Shown here in pieces: positions 14,395-55,856 of a stretch of DNA of 64,000 bases (positions within the stretch are counted from its first letter, which is position 1; the number at the start of each line of letters is the position of its first letter). The notes below the pieces were generated by a model. It made no database searches. It saw nothing but the letters and a program-made list of their open reading frames with translations, and had not been told where the DNA came from. The DNA comes from Mycosarcoma maydis (taxonomy: Eukaryota; Basidiomycota; Ustilaginomycetes; Ustilaginales): assembly GCF_000328475.2 (NCBI RefSeq), contig NC_026482.1:434001-498000 (forward strand), given 5' to 3'. The position numbers were made by a program, and so were the translations under genes.

Positions 14395-14920
14395 CTATTC
14401 CTGAACATAACGTCGGCGCATCGTCCTATATTTTTTGAGCGAGTACAGAGTTTCTGTCTCTGTTGTATGAAGCGCGGTGTAGTTATCAGATGAAATGCGT
14501 CAGTAGTCAACAACAGTCTCGGCCATTCAGGGAGAGATTCGAATCTTACCTTTCTTGACAAACTCTGCCAGGTCGAGTTTAGCCTTGATCTCCTTGTCGT
14601 CGGTCAGATGCGCATTTCTTTCAAACATGCTGCGTAGTTTCCCCAAGAAATTGTACTTGGGATCTGGATAGTCTCTTCCTAGACGGTGGAGCTGTAACAG
14701 CACCAGCAGCATGAGTTTGCAACGTGTCATTGTCCATCAGCTGAAAAGCACCTTCTTGACATCAATGCCTTTCGAACTCGACTCCCAGGGGGGTTTTTGC
14801 TTCAATATCGCAAAAAGCACAGAGGTTTTGGCGTAGTGTGCCGGAGCTAGACATGTATCTACTCACTTCTTTGTACAAGCCGATCGCTCTTGCCCGCATC
14901 GGATGCCCGAGTGGCGGCAT
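14395..14920 (-). CDS. LYR-motif protein, ETFRF1/LYRM5-like, three exons
   Basis: Splicing exons 14920-14867, 14691-14550 and 14459-14395 (minus strand) yields an 86-residue protein. The junctions are GTGAGT/TTACAG and GTAAGA/CAACAG, and all phases agree. Exon 1 ends in the LYR-type motif GLYKE, exon 2 continues HRLGRDYPDPKYNF, and exon 3 ends in LYSLKKYRTMRRRY. This is the layout and length of LYRM5 (ETFRF1), a mitochondrial matrix protein that strips FAD from electron-transfer flavoprotein in animals. No single open frame shows it, because each exon is very short. The stop is TAG at 14395-14397. It is divergent from the UXT-like gene. The family call is firm; the ETF role in fungi is inferred. 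Confidence 0.85.
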
Positions 14921-30490: not shown

Positions 30491-31165
30491 TCAGAACCTT
30501 CTGAGGCCCAGTCCTGTCTCAGCGGCCTGATTAAAATACGCCTGCAGCTCTTTCTGACGATTCGCCTCATCAACCTGTTCCTGCCTCTCTGTGTTGTGGA
30601 TCATAGCTTCGTAATCCGAAATCGGGGTTTTTGTCACTTGTCTTGAGATGGCTGGTGAAGTGTTTGCGCTCGAAGCGGTCGAAGCTGGGTTATGCAGAGA
30701 GCTAAAGCCTTGCGAAGCGAACGAAGAGCGACGCGAGGACGTGGGTGTGGAGAATGCGGAAGAGTCCGAGGTGTGACCCGAGTTCTTTCGAGACCACGAC
30801 TTGAGCGAAGTCTTTCGTTTGAAGACTCGGAGGAAGTCCACATGTAATGGTGAAGAGAATGATGATGATGATGATGACGAGGCATGTGAAGAGGGAGCCG
30901 CGACCAGATCCGAATCCTGAGTGAGCGTCTTGAGCATCGCGTGTGAATGTACATCTTGTCGACGCGGGAAAGAGTGCGAGCGTGATGGTTGAAGGTACTG
31001 ATGACGATACGCCGAGCTGTCATGGGAAGCCGATGCTGTGGGTAAGAGGAAGACGGGTGATAGTGTAGAGGAAACACCCGTGGCGGGCAACGAGGGTGCA
31101 GATGATCGCACCTTTTCCTCGTACAGGTCGCTGAAAGTGAGGTATTGGTACGGCATGGTGGCCAT
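30491..31165 (-). CDS. Hypothetical Ser-rich protein
   Basis: The first ATG is at 31165 (a GTG at 31252 is rejected), with another in frame three codons later; the protein is 224 residues. Recognisable pieces are an N-terminal PYQYLTFSDLYEEKV segment, a run of serines encoded by a TCA/TCG-type microsatellite (about 30860-30880), and a basic RVFKRKTSLKSWSRKNS segment. A C-terminal helix (MIHNTERQEQVDEANRQKELQAYF) completes it. There is no signal peptide. A TATATAAAG-like element on the minus strand near 31236 lies about 70 bp upstream of the ATG. I do not recognise the family; the helix and basic segment suggest a protein-interaction role. Confidence 0.65.
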   Translation of the reverse strand: MATMPYQYLTFSDLYEEKVRSSAPSLPATGVSSTLSPVFLLPTASASHDSSAYRHQYLQPSRSHSFPRRQDVHSHAMLKTLTQDSDLVAAPSSHASSSSSSSFSSPLHVDFLRVFKRKTSLKSWSRKNSGHTSDSSAFSTPTSSRRSSFASQGFSSLHNPASTASSANTSPAISRQVTKTPISDYEAMIHNTERQEQVDEANRQKELQAYFNQAAETGLGLRRF

Positions 31166-31724
31166 GGATGTGTGATGCGCGAAATGGAAGGAGTGACGAG
31201 CTGCCAGAAGCTTGAAAGAGCTGTGTGGGGCAGCTTTATATGGTGTGCACACGCTTGCTGAACGCTTTGGTCGTCAGGTCACTTGACAACGCTTTCGGGG
31301 AATGGGGACCGGCTTCGGCTAAGGCGTTTCGCTGACCAGAGACTGGAGGGTGTGGGGAAAAGAGCTGGTGGAATCTCGGATCTAAGGTCTTTGAATGATG
31401 ATGCTATGTGGTGGAAGTGGATGAACAAGTTTTGACTGAGCCGATGGCAGATACAAGTGAGGTTGATCTTTGACGTGTGATAGAGGTGCTGATACACAAG
31501 TGCGTCCTGCTAAGGCCGAACCAAACAGCGGCAAATTTGTTTCCCGGTTTTCGCACCGCGCCGATCTTTTACTTTCCCGGTGGAAGGCGGATCTGTCATC
31601 AGTCATAAGAGCATTCGTAACTCACGACTGTGAATTTGGAAATTTGGACGACCAAATTTCATAAGAACGCCTACACGATTCACGAATCGAATTAAAATAA
31701 AATTGCCGTTGTCTCCGTGGACCA

Positions 31725-31752
31725 AATCGTGAATCACGAATCACGAATCACG
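31725..31752. repeat. Heptamer array, four units
   Basis: AATCGTG is followed in register by three AATCACG units and then a degenerate AATCTGC. The core flips once while the AAT spacer stays the same. Confidence 0.92.
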
Positions 31753-32280
31753 AATCTGCGTAACCGACTCACAACTTTCACAGAATCGCAAATTGACACG
31801 TCGGACATATCTTTTTTTTTTTCAGCCGACACCAGATCCAGCGAACCACAGACACATTCCATGTTGACTTCTTTGACAGGCTGATCGATTTCCAAGCTAA
31901 ATCCGTGGACCTTTGGCTAGTCAATCTCTCCTCCTACATCGAGTCGATTCGTCTGCTTCTTCGTTTGTAGAAGATATCGTTGGACCTGACTCCTACGAGC
32001 TACCGTTTCAAAGGACACTTCAGTATGTATTGCAAAACAGCGGAGGATGCGGAACCAGGAGTCATGCACATCAAACACTTTGTCGAAACTTTCCACGTTC
32101 CGTTGCTTGGCGCAGTCAGGAGTCATGAGTGTTCGCCGACCCTTTCCGACCCTAATTTTCGGAAGAAACCGCGTTACTTCAAGGTATACCAACTTAACAT
32201 TCCCAGTTGAACCAAACCCCGTATCACGTAACGGACTTTTCGCTGGGCTTAGCGCCGATGAAATAAACGCGAGGTTCAGC

Positions 32281-32353
32281 AACCGGCTAATCGGCAACTT
32301 ATTCGAAGCCGGTTACCGGATGACGACAACGCTAGCCCCCGCCTTCGGCTAGC
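32281..32353. other. Two adjacent inverted repeats
   Basis: AACCGGCT at 32281-32288 pairs with AGCCGGTT at 32307-32314, with an 18-base loop. GCTAGCC at 32331-32337 pairs with GGCTAGC at 32347-32353, with a 9-base loop. They may be hairpins in a transcript or the remnant of an element end; no coding context is seen. Confidence 0.6.
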
Positions 32354-32464
32354 AAAGGCGTCAGGATGTTGCCGAGCAACCAGCGATGATTGCCTTGTGG
32401 CCACTCGAGAAAGGTAGGGTACAGCATGTTCGCATGTGGGGTTGTGTGGAGAGGGCTTAAGACA

Positions 32465-32485
32465 AATCACGAATCACGAATCACG
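32465..32485. repeat. Heptamer array, three units
   Basis: Three perfect AATCACG units are followed by a degenerate AATCGAA. Confidence 0.9.
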
Positions 32486-32895
32486 AATCGAAATTCATGT
32501 CAGTTTCAAATGTGAGAGCGGCAGCACGAACATAAAACAAATTGCAACTCGTCCGGTAGCCAGAGACCACGCCAAGATCAGATAGAATCTCGACCGTTCG
32601 AATCTGATCGGACGGTGGCATGTACATTAGTCGTCACCAGCCGATGTAGAAAACATGACAATCTAGTGGTTCGAATTCTATCAGCGTAGTCATGTTCTGC
32701 TTTGCGGATCTCCCTGCGCCTGTCGTTCGTAAGGTTTGAAGAAGTCAAGGCAAAGTCATGTGATCATCCAACTTCCGTAGTTGACCGATCCACTTGTTGG
32801 AGGGGAACAGAACAGACACAAAGAGCCAATGGGAAGCAGCGCATGCATCAACTTGCAGAGGTGCTGGAAAACTCAAGCATGTCAACTGCATAGAC

Positions 32896-32904
32896 TTATC
32901 AGAT
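32896..32904 (-). promoter_or_regulatory. Iron-GATA site (ATCTGATAA on minus strand)
   Basis: TTATCAGAT on the plus strand is the reverse complement of ATCTGATAA. It matches the ATCWGATAA consensus bound by Urbs1/SreA-type iron-sensing GATA repressors. It lies about 790 bp upstream of the hapX ATG. Confidence 0.6.
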
Positions 32905-33182
32905 TAGCGCGATCGAGGCGAGGCTTCGAATCAAAGGGAGGACAATGGCATCCGACTGGTGTGACTCATCTGTCGGAGCCTTCTCGGCAAGTTAGACATA
33001 GCGAGACTGCGGCAAAGAGCTCACACCAGCGAGCGCGCAAGCCGCACCTCAGCGCAGACCAGCCAAAGTACTTGGCATGCACACCAGCGCGCCTCAGCAA
33101 AGCATACTGGCACGAAAAAGGTGGGGTGTGAGGGCTGAGGAAAGACACGCAGAGGTTGAAACTTGAAGCGAACCACGGCGAG

Positions 33183-33194
33183 CCAATCAGATAA
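33183..33194 (+). promoter_or_regulatory. Overlapping CCAAT box and iron-GATA site
   Basis: CCAAT (33183-33187) overlaps ATCAGATAA (33186-33194), a perfect ATCWGATAA match. CCAAT is the target of the CBC complex, the partner of HapX. The composite lies about 500 bp upstream of the hapX start and could let repressor and activator compete. Confidence 0.65.
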
Positions 33195-33277
33195 CTCGAG
33201 TCCAATGGCTGACTCTCGCATCGAAACTAGATTTCAATGTTCTCTTGAAGAAGCAGTCCACGCACACTTCAATTCTA

Positions 33278-33286
33278 ATCTGATAA
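33278..33286 (+). promoter_or_regulatory. Iron-GATA site (ATCTGATAA)
   Basis: This is the third perfect ATCWGATAA match in the hapX upstream region, 92 bp downstream of the second and about 406 bp before the ATG. Confidence 0.65.
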
Positions 33287-33691
33287 CAAGAATTTCTACC
33301 ACACCCGAAGCTCATTGTATCGGTTCGCAGGCACCAGACCAGTACAAGTCTCCTCTCGTCTTTTCAGCTCCTTCAGCCAAGAGAGCGGCTCAGTCGTGAG
33401 TCGATTCCACCAGAGTACCCAAATTTTCTCTGCTCTCCCCATTGCCTCCACGACTCTTTCGAAACCATCGATCCTTTTTCCCTCAACCTCAACAACAGCA
33501 TTCGACTACCGTACAAATCCTCAACGCTTGGCCTTCGACGACGACGTGAGGCCTCACAATCTGGCTGAAGCTCGCATCCTCGGGCTGCTGATCCAGACGT
33601 CACATCCACTCGTTGTGGTTCAGGCTGTCATGCCGTCTTCTCTGGTTTTTTCGCAAGCTTAGCGTTCATTCCAACGTCAGCGCGTTCCACC

Positions 33692-35968
33692 ATGTCATCT
33701 CCAGCTATGGCACAGATTTTGCCCAATCCAGCCACATCTTCGTCTTCCATTGCAGCACAACGAAACCTGGCACAGAGACCGCTGGTATCTTCTTCAGCGG
33801 CTGCCTCATCTCTCAAACCCGCTCCATCAAAGCCGCCTTCTTCACGGCTGGCGCCAGCACCGTCTTCTTCCATTGCTGCAGCGCCTCTACGTTCTGCTGC
33901 ACCATCGCCTCCGAAGCCCAAACCAGCAACGCTAGCGCCCACGCTCTCTGCCGCTCCTGTACCCTCGACCTCCACTGCATCCCCTGTTGCCAAGAAGGAC
34001 ACCAGTGGCGCACCTCTTGTTCAGCCATCCAAAGAATGGGTCTTGCCTGCGCGCGCCAAGCCTGGTCGCAAGCCTTCCGAAACCGAACCCCTTACTAAGC
34101 GCAAAGCTCAGAACCGTGCCTCTCAACGTGCTTTCCGCGAGCGCAAACAGTCTTACCTTGCAGAGCTCGAAGCGAAAGTTGCTGCCTATGAAGCAGCCGA
34201 AATCGACCGTAGCGTCGAGATTCAAAAGGTCGCCCAAAAGCTACGAGCCGAGAACGACTCTCTGCGCAAAGAAGTTTCGGCATGGAAGGAAAAGTTTGCT
34301 CAAATCGAGAAGTACCTCCTTCAGGCAAAGGCTAACGGAGGCAGACTTCCAGGCATTACGCCAAGCAACAGATCTGGCCCAGGATGCAAGGCTCCAGCGC
34401 ACGAACGTTCGTCAGCTGTACCCAAAAGAGGCGTTTTGATTGCACCTGGTGCAAAGAGCGAGCGCGATCGGGAGAGGAGTGCTGGTGGAGTAAGATTTGC
34501 TGATGCTAAGCCAGACAAGCCCGCGTTGCAGGCGGGCTCTTCAACTGAGGAGCAGCAAGCAGCGTCTGTGCCCCTTCGACCGAAGCCGATCGGAGTCTCA
34601 CTTCCTGTTCCGCCTCCTGATGCTGTGGACACTATCCCGTCTGCTAGCCTAGACGACACCGCCAGCGACGATCAGGGCTCGCTGCCCGAGACTGGAAAGG
34701 TAGCTCCGCGCAAAGCCTCTAAGCTACCTCTCTGGTCTTTTGAGTCGACAAAGCCGCCCTCCCCCGATGCCCCTTCGTTAACTATCTCTGCCACCACAAG
34801 CAGTGATGACAAGCCCACCTCACTCCTATCACCATCTCTCATGCCGCAAGGTGGCCATCTTTCTGTCGGAGGAGGCTGTGGCTTTTGCACCGAGGCTTCT
34901 CCCTGTGTTTGCGCAGACGACTTTCTTGATCTTTCGACGCAGACACCGCCGTCACATATTGCCGTCATCAGCGACGTTGCATCTGCAGTTCCACTCCCTA
35001 AGCGTAGACCAGCTTCAGGCGCATCAGAGACGTCGAGGAGGATGAGCATCGGCTCGCTCACACATGCCAATGACCTGGCCCTCGATCAGCGCAGGCGCAC
35101 CGCTTCGAATGGCACAGGCAAAAAGCTCTGGTACACTGTCACACAGCCTGCCTCTCCCCCGGGGTACTCGGTCACTGCTGCCGTGCCGCTGTCACTCAAA
35201 TCTACATCAAAGGGCAACCCCAGCAAGAAGCTCTGGACGGTCACGGAAACGCCTGCTGAGCCGGTGTGCACAGGTGATCCTAGCACTTGCGGCGCTTGCT
35301 CGACCGATCCTGGTCTGGCCGCATTCTGCGAAGCCGTCACCACCGCCACTGCCTCTCCGTCTTCATCAGTACCCTCTTCTGCTGCTGCTACCGCGTCATC
35401 TCTGTCCCCATCGCGTCCAGGTATGTCGCGTTCCGGAACGACTGGTCAACTTCTTCCTCCCTACCCATCACGAGGTGAGACAATCCCATCGGCATGGCGT
35501 CAGATTCGCTCGCATCCGCGTTTCTCGCAGTGGCAAGGTGGTCTCGACCTTCTCGCCGAAGTCGTCAGCAAGCGTAGTGGCAACGTTCATTCTCCTCTTC
35601 TCTCCAGCAAACGGCCTCGCGAAGCATCTGTCGAGATCGAGCCTTCTCGCTCCAACACCATCTCGGCTACCAGCAACGACCGTGCTACTGCCAAACCGCT
35701 CTTGCTTCACACCACCTCGGACACAACTGTGCACACAGTGCCGCAAATCAAAACGGAAGATGAAGATGATGGGCTGGACGCCCGTGAGCAGAAGCGCAGG
35801 CGGATCTTGATCGATAGGGAGGCCGTGCAGGAGGCTCTGGCTCTGTTGGACGCTGGTACTGCAGCGCAGCCTAGAGCAGGCGCGAGTCTGAGCACCAATC
35901 CGGGAACTGGCAAAGAAGAACAACCCTGCCCTTGTCCCTGGCGTCCTGGCGAAAGGCGGACACCTTAA
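33692..35968 (+). CDS. hapX: HapX-type iron-regulatory bZIP transcription factor
   Basis: The 758-residue protein has the Hap4-like CBC-binding motif SKEWVLPARAKPGRKPS (residues 113-129). A basic region with NRASQRAFRERK (about 141-152) follows, and then a coiled coil to about residue 210. Two cysteine clusters match the iron-sensing regions of HapX: CGFC...CVC (396-407) and C526, C533, C536, C546. The C-terminus adds CPCP. A region reading SAWRQIRSHPRFSQW is also shared with HapX proteins. HapX works with the CCAAT-binding complex to repress iron-using pathways and to activate uptake under iron starvation. The gene is intronless. Its upstream region has three iron-GATA sites, pointing to repression by an Urbs1-type factor when iron is plentiful. 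Confidence 0.9.
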   Translation: MSSPAMAQILPNPATSSSSIAAQRNLAQRPLVSSSAAASSLKPAPSKPPSSRLAPAPSSSIAAAPLRSAAPSPPKPKPATLAPTLSAAPVPSTSTASPVAKKDTSGAPLVQPSKEWVLPARAKPGRKPSETEPLTKRKAQNRASQRAFRERKQSYLAELEAKVAAYEAAEIDRSVEIQKVAQKLRAENDSLRKEVSAWKEKFAQIEKYLLQAKANGGRLPGITPSNRSGPGCKAPAHERSSAVPKRGVLIAPGAKSERDRERSAGGVRFADAKPDKPALQAGSSTEEQQAASVPLRPKPIGVSLPVPPPDAVDTIPSASLDDTASDDQGSLPETGKVAPRKASKLPLWSFESTKPPSPDAPSLTISATTSSDDKPTSLLSPSLMPQGGHLSVGGGCGFCTEASPCVCADDFLDLSTQTPPSHIAVISDVASAVPLPKRRPASGASETSRRMSIGSLTHANDLALDQRRRTASNGTGKKLWYTVTQPASPPGYSVTAAVPLSLKSTSKGNPSKKLWTVTETPAEPVCTGDPSTCGACSTDPGLAAFCEAVTTATASPSSSVPSSAAATASSLSPSRPGMSRSGTTGQLLPPYPSRGETIPSAWRQIRSHPRFSQWQGGLDLLAEVVSKRSGNVHSPLLSSKRPREASVEIEPSRSNTISATSNDRATAKPLLLHTTSDTTVHTVPQIKTEDEDDGLDAREQKRRRILIDREAVQEALALLDAGTAAQPRAGASLSTNPGTGKEEQPCPCPWRPGERRTP

Positions 35969-55010: not shown

Positions 55011-55856
55011 TCAAATATACATGTTGCCGTCTCCTAACACAGCCAAATTAGCTGCTGGCTTAACCCTTCGAGATGCTACAAAGTCAAGCAGGGTTGAACC
55101 CTTGGATGCTACTGGTTTGCCACCGTCGAGACCGGTCAAGGCACTCAAGGTCTCGCTGATTGCCGGTGATGGCTGACCCGCACCAAGGGATCCGTACAGC
55201 TGAATGTGAGATTGGAAACTTACATCCTCAAGCAGCGCGAGAATGGCAGGAATGTTGCTGATCACCGCCTTGGACAGGAATGCAGCGCCAATCCCGCCCG
55301 CCGATTCAGGTGCTCGCAGGGGTGTCATCCTCTTTGAGTCGATGGTATGGCTCGCAGTATAGCTGGGTGATGCCAGGTATCGAATCGGTGCTTCGCAATC
55401 AGCGTCGTCTTGCGAATCGAGATCGCGGTAGATTTGCTCTTGTGGGCTATACGAGTCAACGATGACAATCTTTGATGGATTTGTTGCTTCGATTATCTGA
55501 TGAGCAAGATCATGAAAGCGAGATGAGCGCAGTTGTGGAGGAGGTACTACCAGAGCTATGGTGATCGGGCTACCAGTGCTGGAACTTGCAACGGCAATTG
55601 CTGCATGCTGTTCTGATTCGCTCTGCAAAGATAGTTGCTGTGAGGGAACGCCACCTGCCAGCGAGGATAGCATCTTGGCGCCTGCGCTGCCAACCAGTAC
55701 AGTCAGCTGCGAACCTTGAGGCAAAGCGTCATCTGCAGCAACGAGGGTGTATGGATGTTGCGACTCGTTAACATTATGCTCCCACTCGTCTTCTGAGCCC
55801 GACTCTAGCTCGTATCGGGGTGCAGGTACATCACGGTTGACTGGGTCGAACTCCAT
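55011..55856 (-). CDS. Probable proteasome assembly chaperone 1-like protein
   Basis: The 281-residue protein begins with an acidic stretch (ELESGSEDEWEHNVNE). A folded region then alternates hydrophobic strands and helices: LTVLVGSAGAKMLSSLAG, PITIALVVPPPQL, SKIVIVDSY and ISNIPAILALLEDV. The order and the PAILALLEDV helix resemble PAC1/PSMG1, which pairs with PAC2 to build the proteasome alpha ring. The similarity is recalled rather than computed, so the call is moderate. It has no signal peptide or intron. The alternative is an unrelated conserved fungal protein. Confidence 0.45.
   Translation of the reverse strand: MEFDPVNRDVPAPRYELESGSEDEWEHNVNESQHPYTLVAADDALPQGSQLTVLVGSAGAKMLSSLAGGVPSQQLSLQSESEQHAAIAVASSSTGSPITIALVVPPPQLRSSRFHDLAHQIIEATNPSKIVIVDSYSPQEQIYRDLDSQDDADCEAPIRYLASPSYTASHTIDSKRMTPLRAPESAGGIGAAFLSKAVISNIPAILALLEDVSFQSHIQLYGSLGAGQPSPAISETLSALTGLDGGKPVASKGSTLLDFVASRRVKPAANLAVLGDGNMYI

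Follow-up and report, generated by a model that had tools for sequence, protein, structure and literature searches.

Clustered iron-GATA sites upstream of U. maydis hapX, the gene in print as yap1, suggest control by Urbs1

Results

The stretch of DNA analysed, referred to as the window, is 64,000 nucleotides long (C5:434001-498000) and belongs to the 19.66-Mb, 27-contig genome of U. maydis. It contains a hapX-type gene with its ATG at 33692, and three iron-GATA sites (ATCWGATAA) are found upstream of this gene (Table 1). The naming of the gene as hapX in a preliminary description of this DNA was borne out by the protein, which combines a Hap4-like motif, a bZIP and the cysteine-rich regions CRR-B and CRR-C. 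Both Hap4_Hap_bind and bZIP_1 score above their Pfam cut-offs. The Hap4-like CBC-binding motif (PF10297), by which a HapX is recognized, reaches 27.7 bits against a cut-off of 21.1, and this is the only gene in the genome in which it does so. The best PDB relatives are 7aw7/7aw9 (E 2e-16, residues 113-202), which carry the label 'BZIP domain-containing protein' and which we take to be Aspergillus HapX. Pap1 (1gd2) was matched at 1e-8, so that the Pap1/Yap1-type bZIP is nearest to the solved HapX. Cysteines are present at residues 232, 396, 399, 405, 407, 526, 533, 536, 546, 746 and 748. The 195 matches found, of which 120 were listed, include proteins of the smuts Pseudozyma hubeiensis, Ustilago trichophora, Sporisorium graminicola, S. 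reilianum and S. scitamineum, and 13 relatives hand-picked from the list were aligned with the protein. In this alignment AQNRASQRAFRER within the bZIP is invariant, and the CRR-B cysteines, the four CRR-C cysteines and CPCPW are invariant in 14/14 proteins, query included. CRR-B and CRR-C are those found among the four cysteine-rich regions of HapX.

Table 1. Features of the hapX locus (window positions), followed by genomic copies of the CCAAT-GATA composite and the other genomic trios of ATCWGATAA sites within 1,500 bp
Feature	Position	Strand	Remarks
Distal CCAAT box	32826..32830	+
Iron-GATA site 1, ATCTGATAA	32896..32904	-	Exact match; 787-796 bp upstream of ATG
Perfect TGACTCA palindrome, presumably AP-1-type, between iron-GATA sites 1 and 2	32962..32968	n/a
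Composite CCAATCAGATAA: CBC-consensus CCAATCA overlapping iron-GATA site 2	33183..33194	+	One of exactly five in the genome
Iron-GATA site 2, ATCAGATAA, part of the CCAAT composite	33186..33194	+	Exact match; 497-506 bp upstream of ATG
Second CCAAT box, 19 bp downstream of the first (33183-33187)	33202..33206	+
Iron-GATA site 3, ATCTGATAA	33278..33286	+	Exact match; 405-414 bp upstream of ATG
hapX-type gene, 758 aa, single intact open frame	33692..35968	+	ORF, Pfam, PDB relatives, Cys399/Cys407
CBC-binding (Hap4-like) motif, residues 112-128	34025..34075	+	Pfam PF10297
bZIP basic region and start of zipper, residues 135-167	34094..34192	+	Pfam PF00170
CRR-B, CGFC-x5-CxC, residues 396-407	34877..34912	+	Cysteine positions
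CRR-C cysteine-rich region, residues 526-546	35267..35329	+	Cysteine positions
CPCPW, C-terminal motif, residues 746-750	35927..35941	+	Alignment
CCAATCAGATAA copy	C2:36337		Upstream of MFS gene beside ferric reductase
CCAATCAGATAA copy	C2:1834699		Upstream of ABC gene in NRPS region
CCAATCAGATAA copy	C2:1871341		About 1.8 kb upstream of ferric reductase at the end of C2
CCAATCAGATAA copy	C8:338795		Within Dor1/COG8 coding frame
ATCWGATAA trio	C1		Multicopper oxidase and FTR1
ATCWGATAA trio	C2 left		Ferric reductase
ATCWGATAA trio	C2 right arm		NRPS
ATCWGATAA trio	C2 right end		Ferric reductase
ATCWGATAA trio	C4		Between ornithine monooxygenase and AMP-binding (NRPS-type) gene; sid1-/sid2-type
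ATCWGATAA trio	C4:148657		ABC transporter, no assigned iron role
ATCWGATAA trio	C14:375348-376455 (L026:4349-5456)		No recognisable iron gene

The next bZIP relatives in the genome, at C15:85536 and C3:1142964, were considered as a second hapX and rejected, neither having a Hap4 motif over the cut-off. One ATCAGATAA (C15:84820-84828, L035:785-793) lies about 710 bp upstream of the Yap-type bZIP match at C15:85536.

U. maydis Yap1 was reportedly presented as a peroxide sensor and virulence regulator by Molina and Kahmann in 2007. Its deletion reduces virulence and peroxide resistance, according to the available part of PMC11452521. As described in the corresponding part of PMC4232046, Yap1 has CBC-binding and bZIP domains, CRR-B with Cys399/Cys407, CRR-C and a CPC near the C terminus, and is without CRR-A and CRR-D. 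The window's protein likewise has cysteines 399 and 407 and a CPC near its C terminus. Because the numbering is the same as published, the window's hapX, judged from its predicted protein, is the gene in print as U. maydis yap1, the peroxide and virulence regulator. The preliminary description had overlooked this. The same paper already puts forward a 'Yap1/HapX chimera' that may take part in iron homeostasis, an idea drawn from protein domains. The promoter evidence given here is additional to it, and none of this kind was met in the available portions of the literature.

The three perfect 9-mers had been described as lying within 800 bp of the ATG. Their coordinates and strands were as claimed, and the measured distances span 405-796 bp. 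About one such site had been expected by chance in 64 kb; the calculated expectation is 0.71, and five were found in the window. Here the description needed correction, since it had noticed one other site where there are two, at 14483-14491 and 55493-55501. The latter, overlooked until now, is ATCAGATAA and falls within a 281-aa ORF with no Pfam match at 0.001. When the upstream stretch of hapX (31253-33691, 2,439 bp) was shuffled preserving dinucleotides, at least three sites occurred in 1 of 5,000 shuffles, with a mean of 0.026. The motif is therefore present at hapX beyond chance, as would be expected of a member of an Urbs1/SreA regulon.

In the whole genome, ATCWGATAA has 130 matches (127 distinct sites once overlapping palindromes are merged). 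The reversed pattern gave 30 matches, and a control 9-mer, ATGWGATAA, gave 102. The raw excess of 130 over 102 is small, and the signal is in clustering and gene association. The hapX trio, spanning 391 bp, is the tightest in the genome among the 127 distinct sites. Three trios fall within 800 bp, against 0.0015 expected from random placement, and eight within 1,500 bp, against 0.0055. Among the 100 control matches listed of the 102, no two neighbours are within 391 bp of each other; within 1,500 bp there are three pairs and no trio. The 800-bp trios are those at hapX, at a ferric reductase located 8 kb short of the C2 end and in the sid1/sid2-type stretch on C4, sid and fer names being matched in this genome by domain and place alone. 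Besides hapX, five of the seven trios within 1,500 bp are at iron-acquisition genes as judged by Pfam domains, and the heme oxygenase gene has a pair of sites. The trio on C14 adjoins a Myb/Cef splicing factor and an ORF of 633 aa; this ORF gave no Pfam match at 1e-5 and may be an iron gene.

Several pairs of sites have similar spacings from start to start: 303 bp at heme oxygenase (L014:5025-5336), 301 bp at a ferric reductase (L015:4513-4822), 302 bp in the sid1/sid2-type stretch (L023:5999-6309) and 290 bp at hapX. A spacing rule of about 300 bp was rejected because an equally strong peak appeared in 27-58% of random-placement simulations.

The middle iron-GATA site had also been described as overlapping the CCAAT box at 33183-33187, and it does so by two bases, forming CCAATCAGATAA. 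Its CCAATCA conforms to the CBC consensus, given as CCAAT(C/T)(A/G) in the available part of PMC4232046; CCAATCT does not. Exactly five copies of CCAATCAGATAA exist in the genome and four are upstream of iron-related genes, the iron role of the MFS and ABC genes being taken from their neighbours alone. The flanks of the copies differ, so recent copying is not apparent. CCA precedes 5 of the 52 genomic copies of ATCAGATAA, compared with 0.81-0.87 expected (P 0.001-0.002), and none of the 78 copies of ATCTGATAA. There are zero genome copies of CCAATCTGATAA, although ATCTGATAA (78) outnumbers ATCAGATAA (52). By a hand count covering the examined loci, outside which further ATCAGATAA sites may include more iron genes, 11 ATCAGATAA sites are at iron loci and four of them have CCA. 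If C2:36337 is left out, having been chosen for its composite, the count is 3 of 10 (P about 0.0005).

Two further comparisons gave weaker results. Of the 40 genome copies of CCAATCAGAT, 5 are followed by AA, only a slight excess over chance (P 0.06-0.10). A CCAAT box is no more than 6 bp from the GATA site at 6 of 26 sites in iron stretches; eight non-iron loci have 1 such site among 18 (Fisher P 0.21). The iron set here consists of ten hand-chosen inter-ORF stretches with 26 sites, the sites of L017, L019 and L018:9404-9739 lying outside it. Given the weakness of these two measures, the case for the composite depends mainly on its gene association (4/5) and the CCA excess (5/52).

Genes for the two proposed binding partners were found. 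An Urbs1-type gene at C2:725130-725663 on the minus strand encodes two GATA fingers around a Cys-rich stretch, the arrangement of the iron repressor. The CBC subunit NF-YA/HapB is at C3:490739. The 3.5 kb upstream of urbs1 (C2:726700-730200, L042) hold no ATCWGATAA. They have six CCAAT boxes, of which four read CCAATCA. The CBC:HapX motif is given as CSAATN12RWT in the available part of PMC10602907, and one of the six boxes (729005) has its N12-RWT spacing. Across all loci examined this spacing follows 34 of 452 CCAAT boxes, so at least one in six would arise by luck about one time in three. The CCAATCA boxes are 1.7-2.6 kb from the urbs1 ATG and may serve another gene. Together, the CCAAT boxes and the absence of ATCWGATAA are weakly compatible with reciprocal repression between urbs1 and hapX, and suggestive only.

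Discussion

The HapX architecture, the non-random sites, the clusters at iron genes and the Urbs1-type gene together make repression by Urbs1 the likeliest reading. We consider it probable that the three sites are Urbs1 operators, as predicted from the DNA, and that Urbs1 represses hapX/yap1 under ample iron. When iron is plentiful, iron-loaded Urbs1 would be on the three sites and transcription of hapX/yap1 would be held down. When iron is scarce, Urbs1 would leave them. With Urbs1 gone, CBC would move onto the CCAAT boxes, including the one overlapping the middle GATA site, and hapX/yap1 would be expressed. At the composite, Urbs1 would deny CBC its site, the two proteins probably being mutually exclusive. 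The preliminary description had proposed that a GATA repressor shuts off hapX. The non-random sites, the motif at iron genes and the Urbs1-type gene stand in its favour, while Urbs1 binding, the direction of repression and the exclusion of CBC at the composite are what we infer.

For U. maydis sid1, the in vivo sites are described as matching ATCWGATAA (PMC2610380). PMC10532341 and PMC11380514 describe Urbs1 as a negative regulator of fer and sid genes. PMC10532341 maps the fer cluster to the right end of chromosome 2 and counts it, together with sid1, sid2, fer1 and fer2, among the genes under this negative control. The same extended motif clusters at the matching genes here. The sid and fer genes serve uptake and siderophores, whereas at hapX Urbs1 would act on the gene of a transcription factor. 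In the accessible literature, fer and sid genes are listed as Urbs1 targets, and yap1 and hapX are not. The Urbs1 target data are said to go back to an array paper, Eichhorn 2006.

One alternative is that Urbs1 binds these sites as an activator or without effect on the transcript, and that HapX is set mainly post-translationally through its cysteine-rich regions. The C. neoformans factor Cir1 acts positively as well as negatively and changes HAPX little (PMC2991262); in A. fumigatus, HapX uses cysteine-rich regions for iron sensing (PMC4232046 and PMC12390756). Urbs1 acts negatively on the U. maydis fer and sid genes, however, and their counterparts here have the same site clusters. We think this alternative unlikely.

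Equally unlikely, in our estimation, is the version in the preliminary description, in which the composite CCAAT serves self-regulation by CBC:HapX, and HapX and Urbs1 compete there. It would agree with the CBC-consensus CCAATCA overlapping the GATA site and with the TGACTCA at 32962. CCAATCA is also over-represented among the CCAAT boxes of ten hand-chosen iron-gene upstream stretches (17/50 compared with 20/172 in two control sets, Fisher P 0.0005). Yet all three CCAAT boxes ahead of hapX lack a following N12-RWT, and the three matches to CSAATN12RWT in 31253-33691 all begin with CGAAT. Competition between Urbs1 and CBC alone therefore fits the composite better.

Another possible explanation, to which we give slightly less weight still, is that the sites belong to a different GATA factor, such as one of Nit2/AreA-like or white-collar-like type, with nitrogen or light in place of iron as the controlling signal. 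The genome has 12 GATA-finger matches, so other readers of the GATA core exist. This explanation is opposed by the clustering of the extended ATCWGATAA, which the bare core WGATAR does not share (61 in the window compared with 72 expected), and by the location of five of the seven other trios at iron-acquisition genes. We think it very improbable that the cluster arose by chance or belongs to the divergently oriented ORF next to it (30491-31252, minus strand): some single ATCWGATAA sites are not at iron genes, nor is the C14 trio at a recognisable one, but the shuffles rarely gave three sites and the start of the neighbouring ORF is more than 1.6 kb from the hapX sites, compared with 405-796 bp for hapX.

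Repression of hapX by Urbs1 would resemble what is known in ascomycetes. The available part of PMC2610380 places hapX in the SreA regulon of A. fumigatus and A. nidulans, where an iron GATA repressor, the ATCWGATAA motif and a hapX target are likewise combined (also PMC2991262 and PMC12390756, as far as available). The present case differs in being in a basidiomycete smut, in having three full sites within 391 bp with one overlapping a CCAAT box, in a target that is also the published peroxide regulator Yap1, and in that control is predicted here. The composite resembles the A. fumigatus ftrA promoter, where the repressor's GATA site overlaps that of an activator and competition has been proposed (PMC10294635, available part). 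The partner there is SrbA, at an overlapping SreA/SrbA site, whereas CBC is predicted here. Cryptococcus neoformans offers a GATA factor and HapX pair within the basidiomycetes, Cir1/HapX. Unlike in the smut proposal, HAPX responds little to Cir1, and HapX increases CIR1 transcript (PMC2991262), so GATA-hapX wiring cannot be assumed across basidiomycetes.

GATA control of hapX is known in ascomycetes; what appears to be new is this member of the kind, its connection with yap1 and the composite it shares with other loci. No statement on Urbs1 or iron control of U. maydis hapX/yap1 was found in the accessible portions of the literature, and an earlier report, for example in Urbs1 array data, is possible. 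For the missing half of the account in a 2017 review (PMC5812535, in its available part), the hapX promoter offers one named gene and three short test sites. It would show whether GATA control of hapX reaches the smuts, Cryptococcus being wired differently. The regulatory DNA of yap1, a published peroxide-defence gene, suggests control by iron supply. If this is true, one regulator would connect the supply of iron with the defence against peroxide, each of which has a link to virulence.

A fuller scheme can be put forward only tentatively, and we doubt that it holds in every part. A single protein would be both the published peroxide sensor Yap1 and HapX. Iron-loaded Urbs1 would shut its gene through CCAATCAGATAA, shared by four iron-related upstream regions, with Urbs1 and CBC mutually exclusive. 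Iron would thereby set a regulator of peroxide defence, and hapX/yap1 and urbs1 would repress each other.

Two minor features of the upstream stretch may bear on regulation. The TGACTCA at 32962-32968, which we take to be an AP-1-type bZIP motif, is a possible candidate for binding by a bZIP protein, including self-binding and self-regulation. An upstream ORF of 10 codons, ATG to TAG (33630-33662), ends 29 bases before the hapX ATG and, if transcribed, could exert translational control of hapX.
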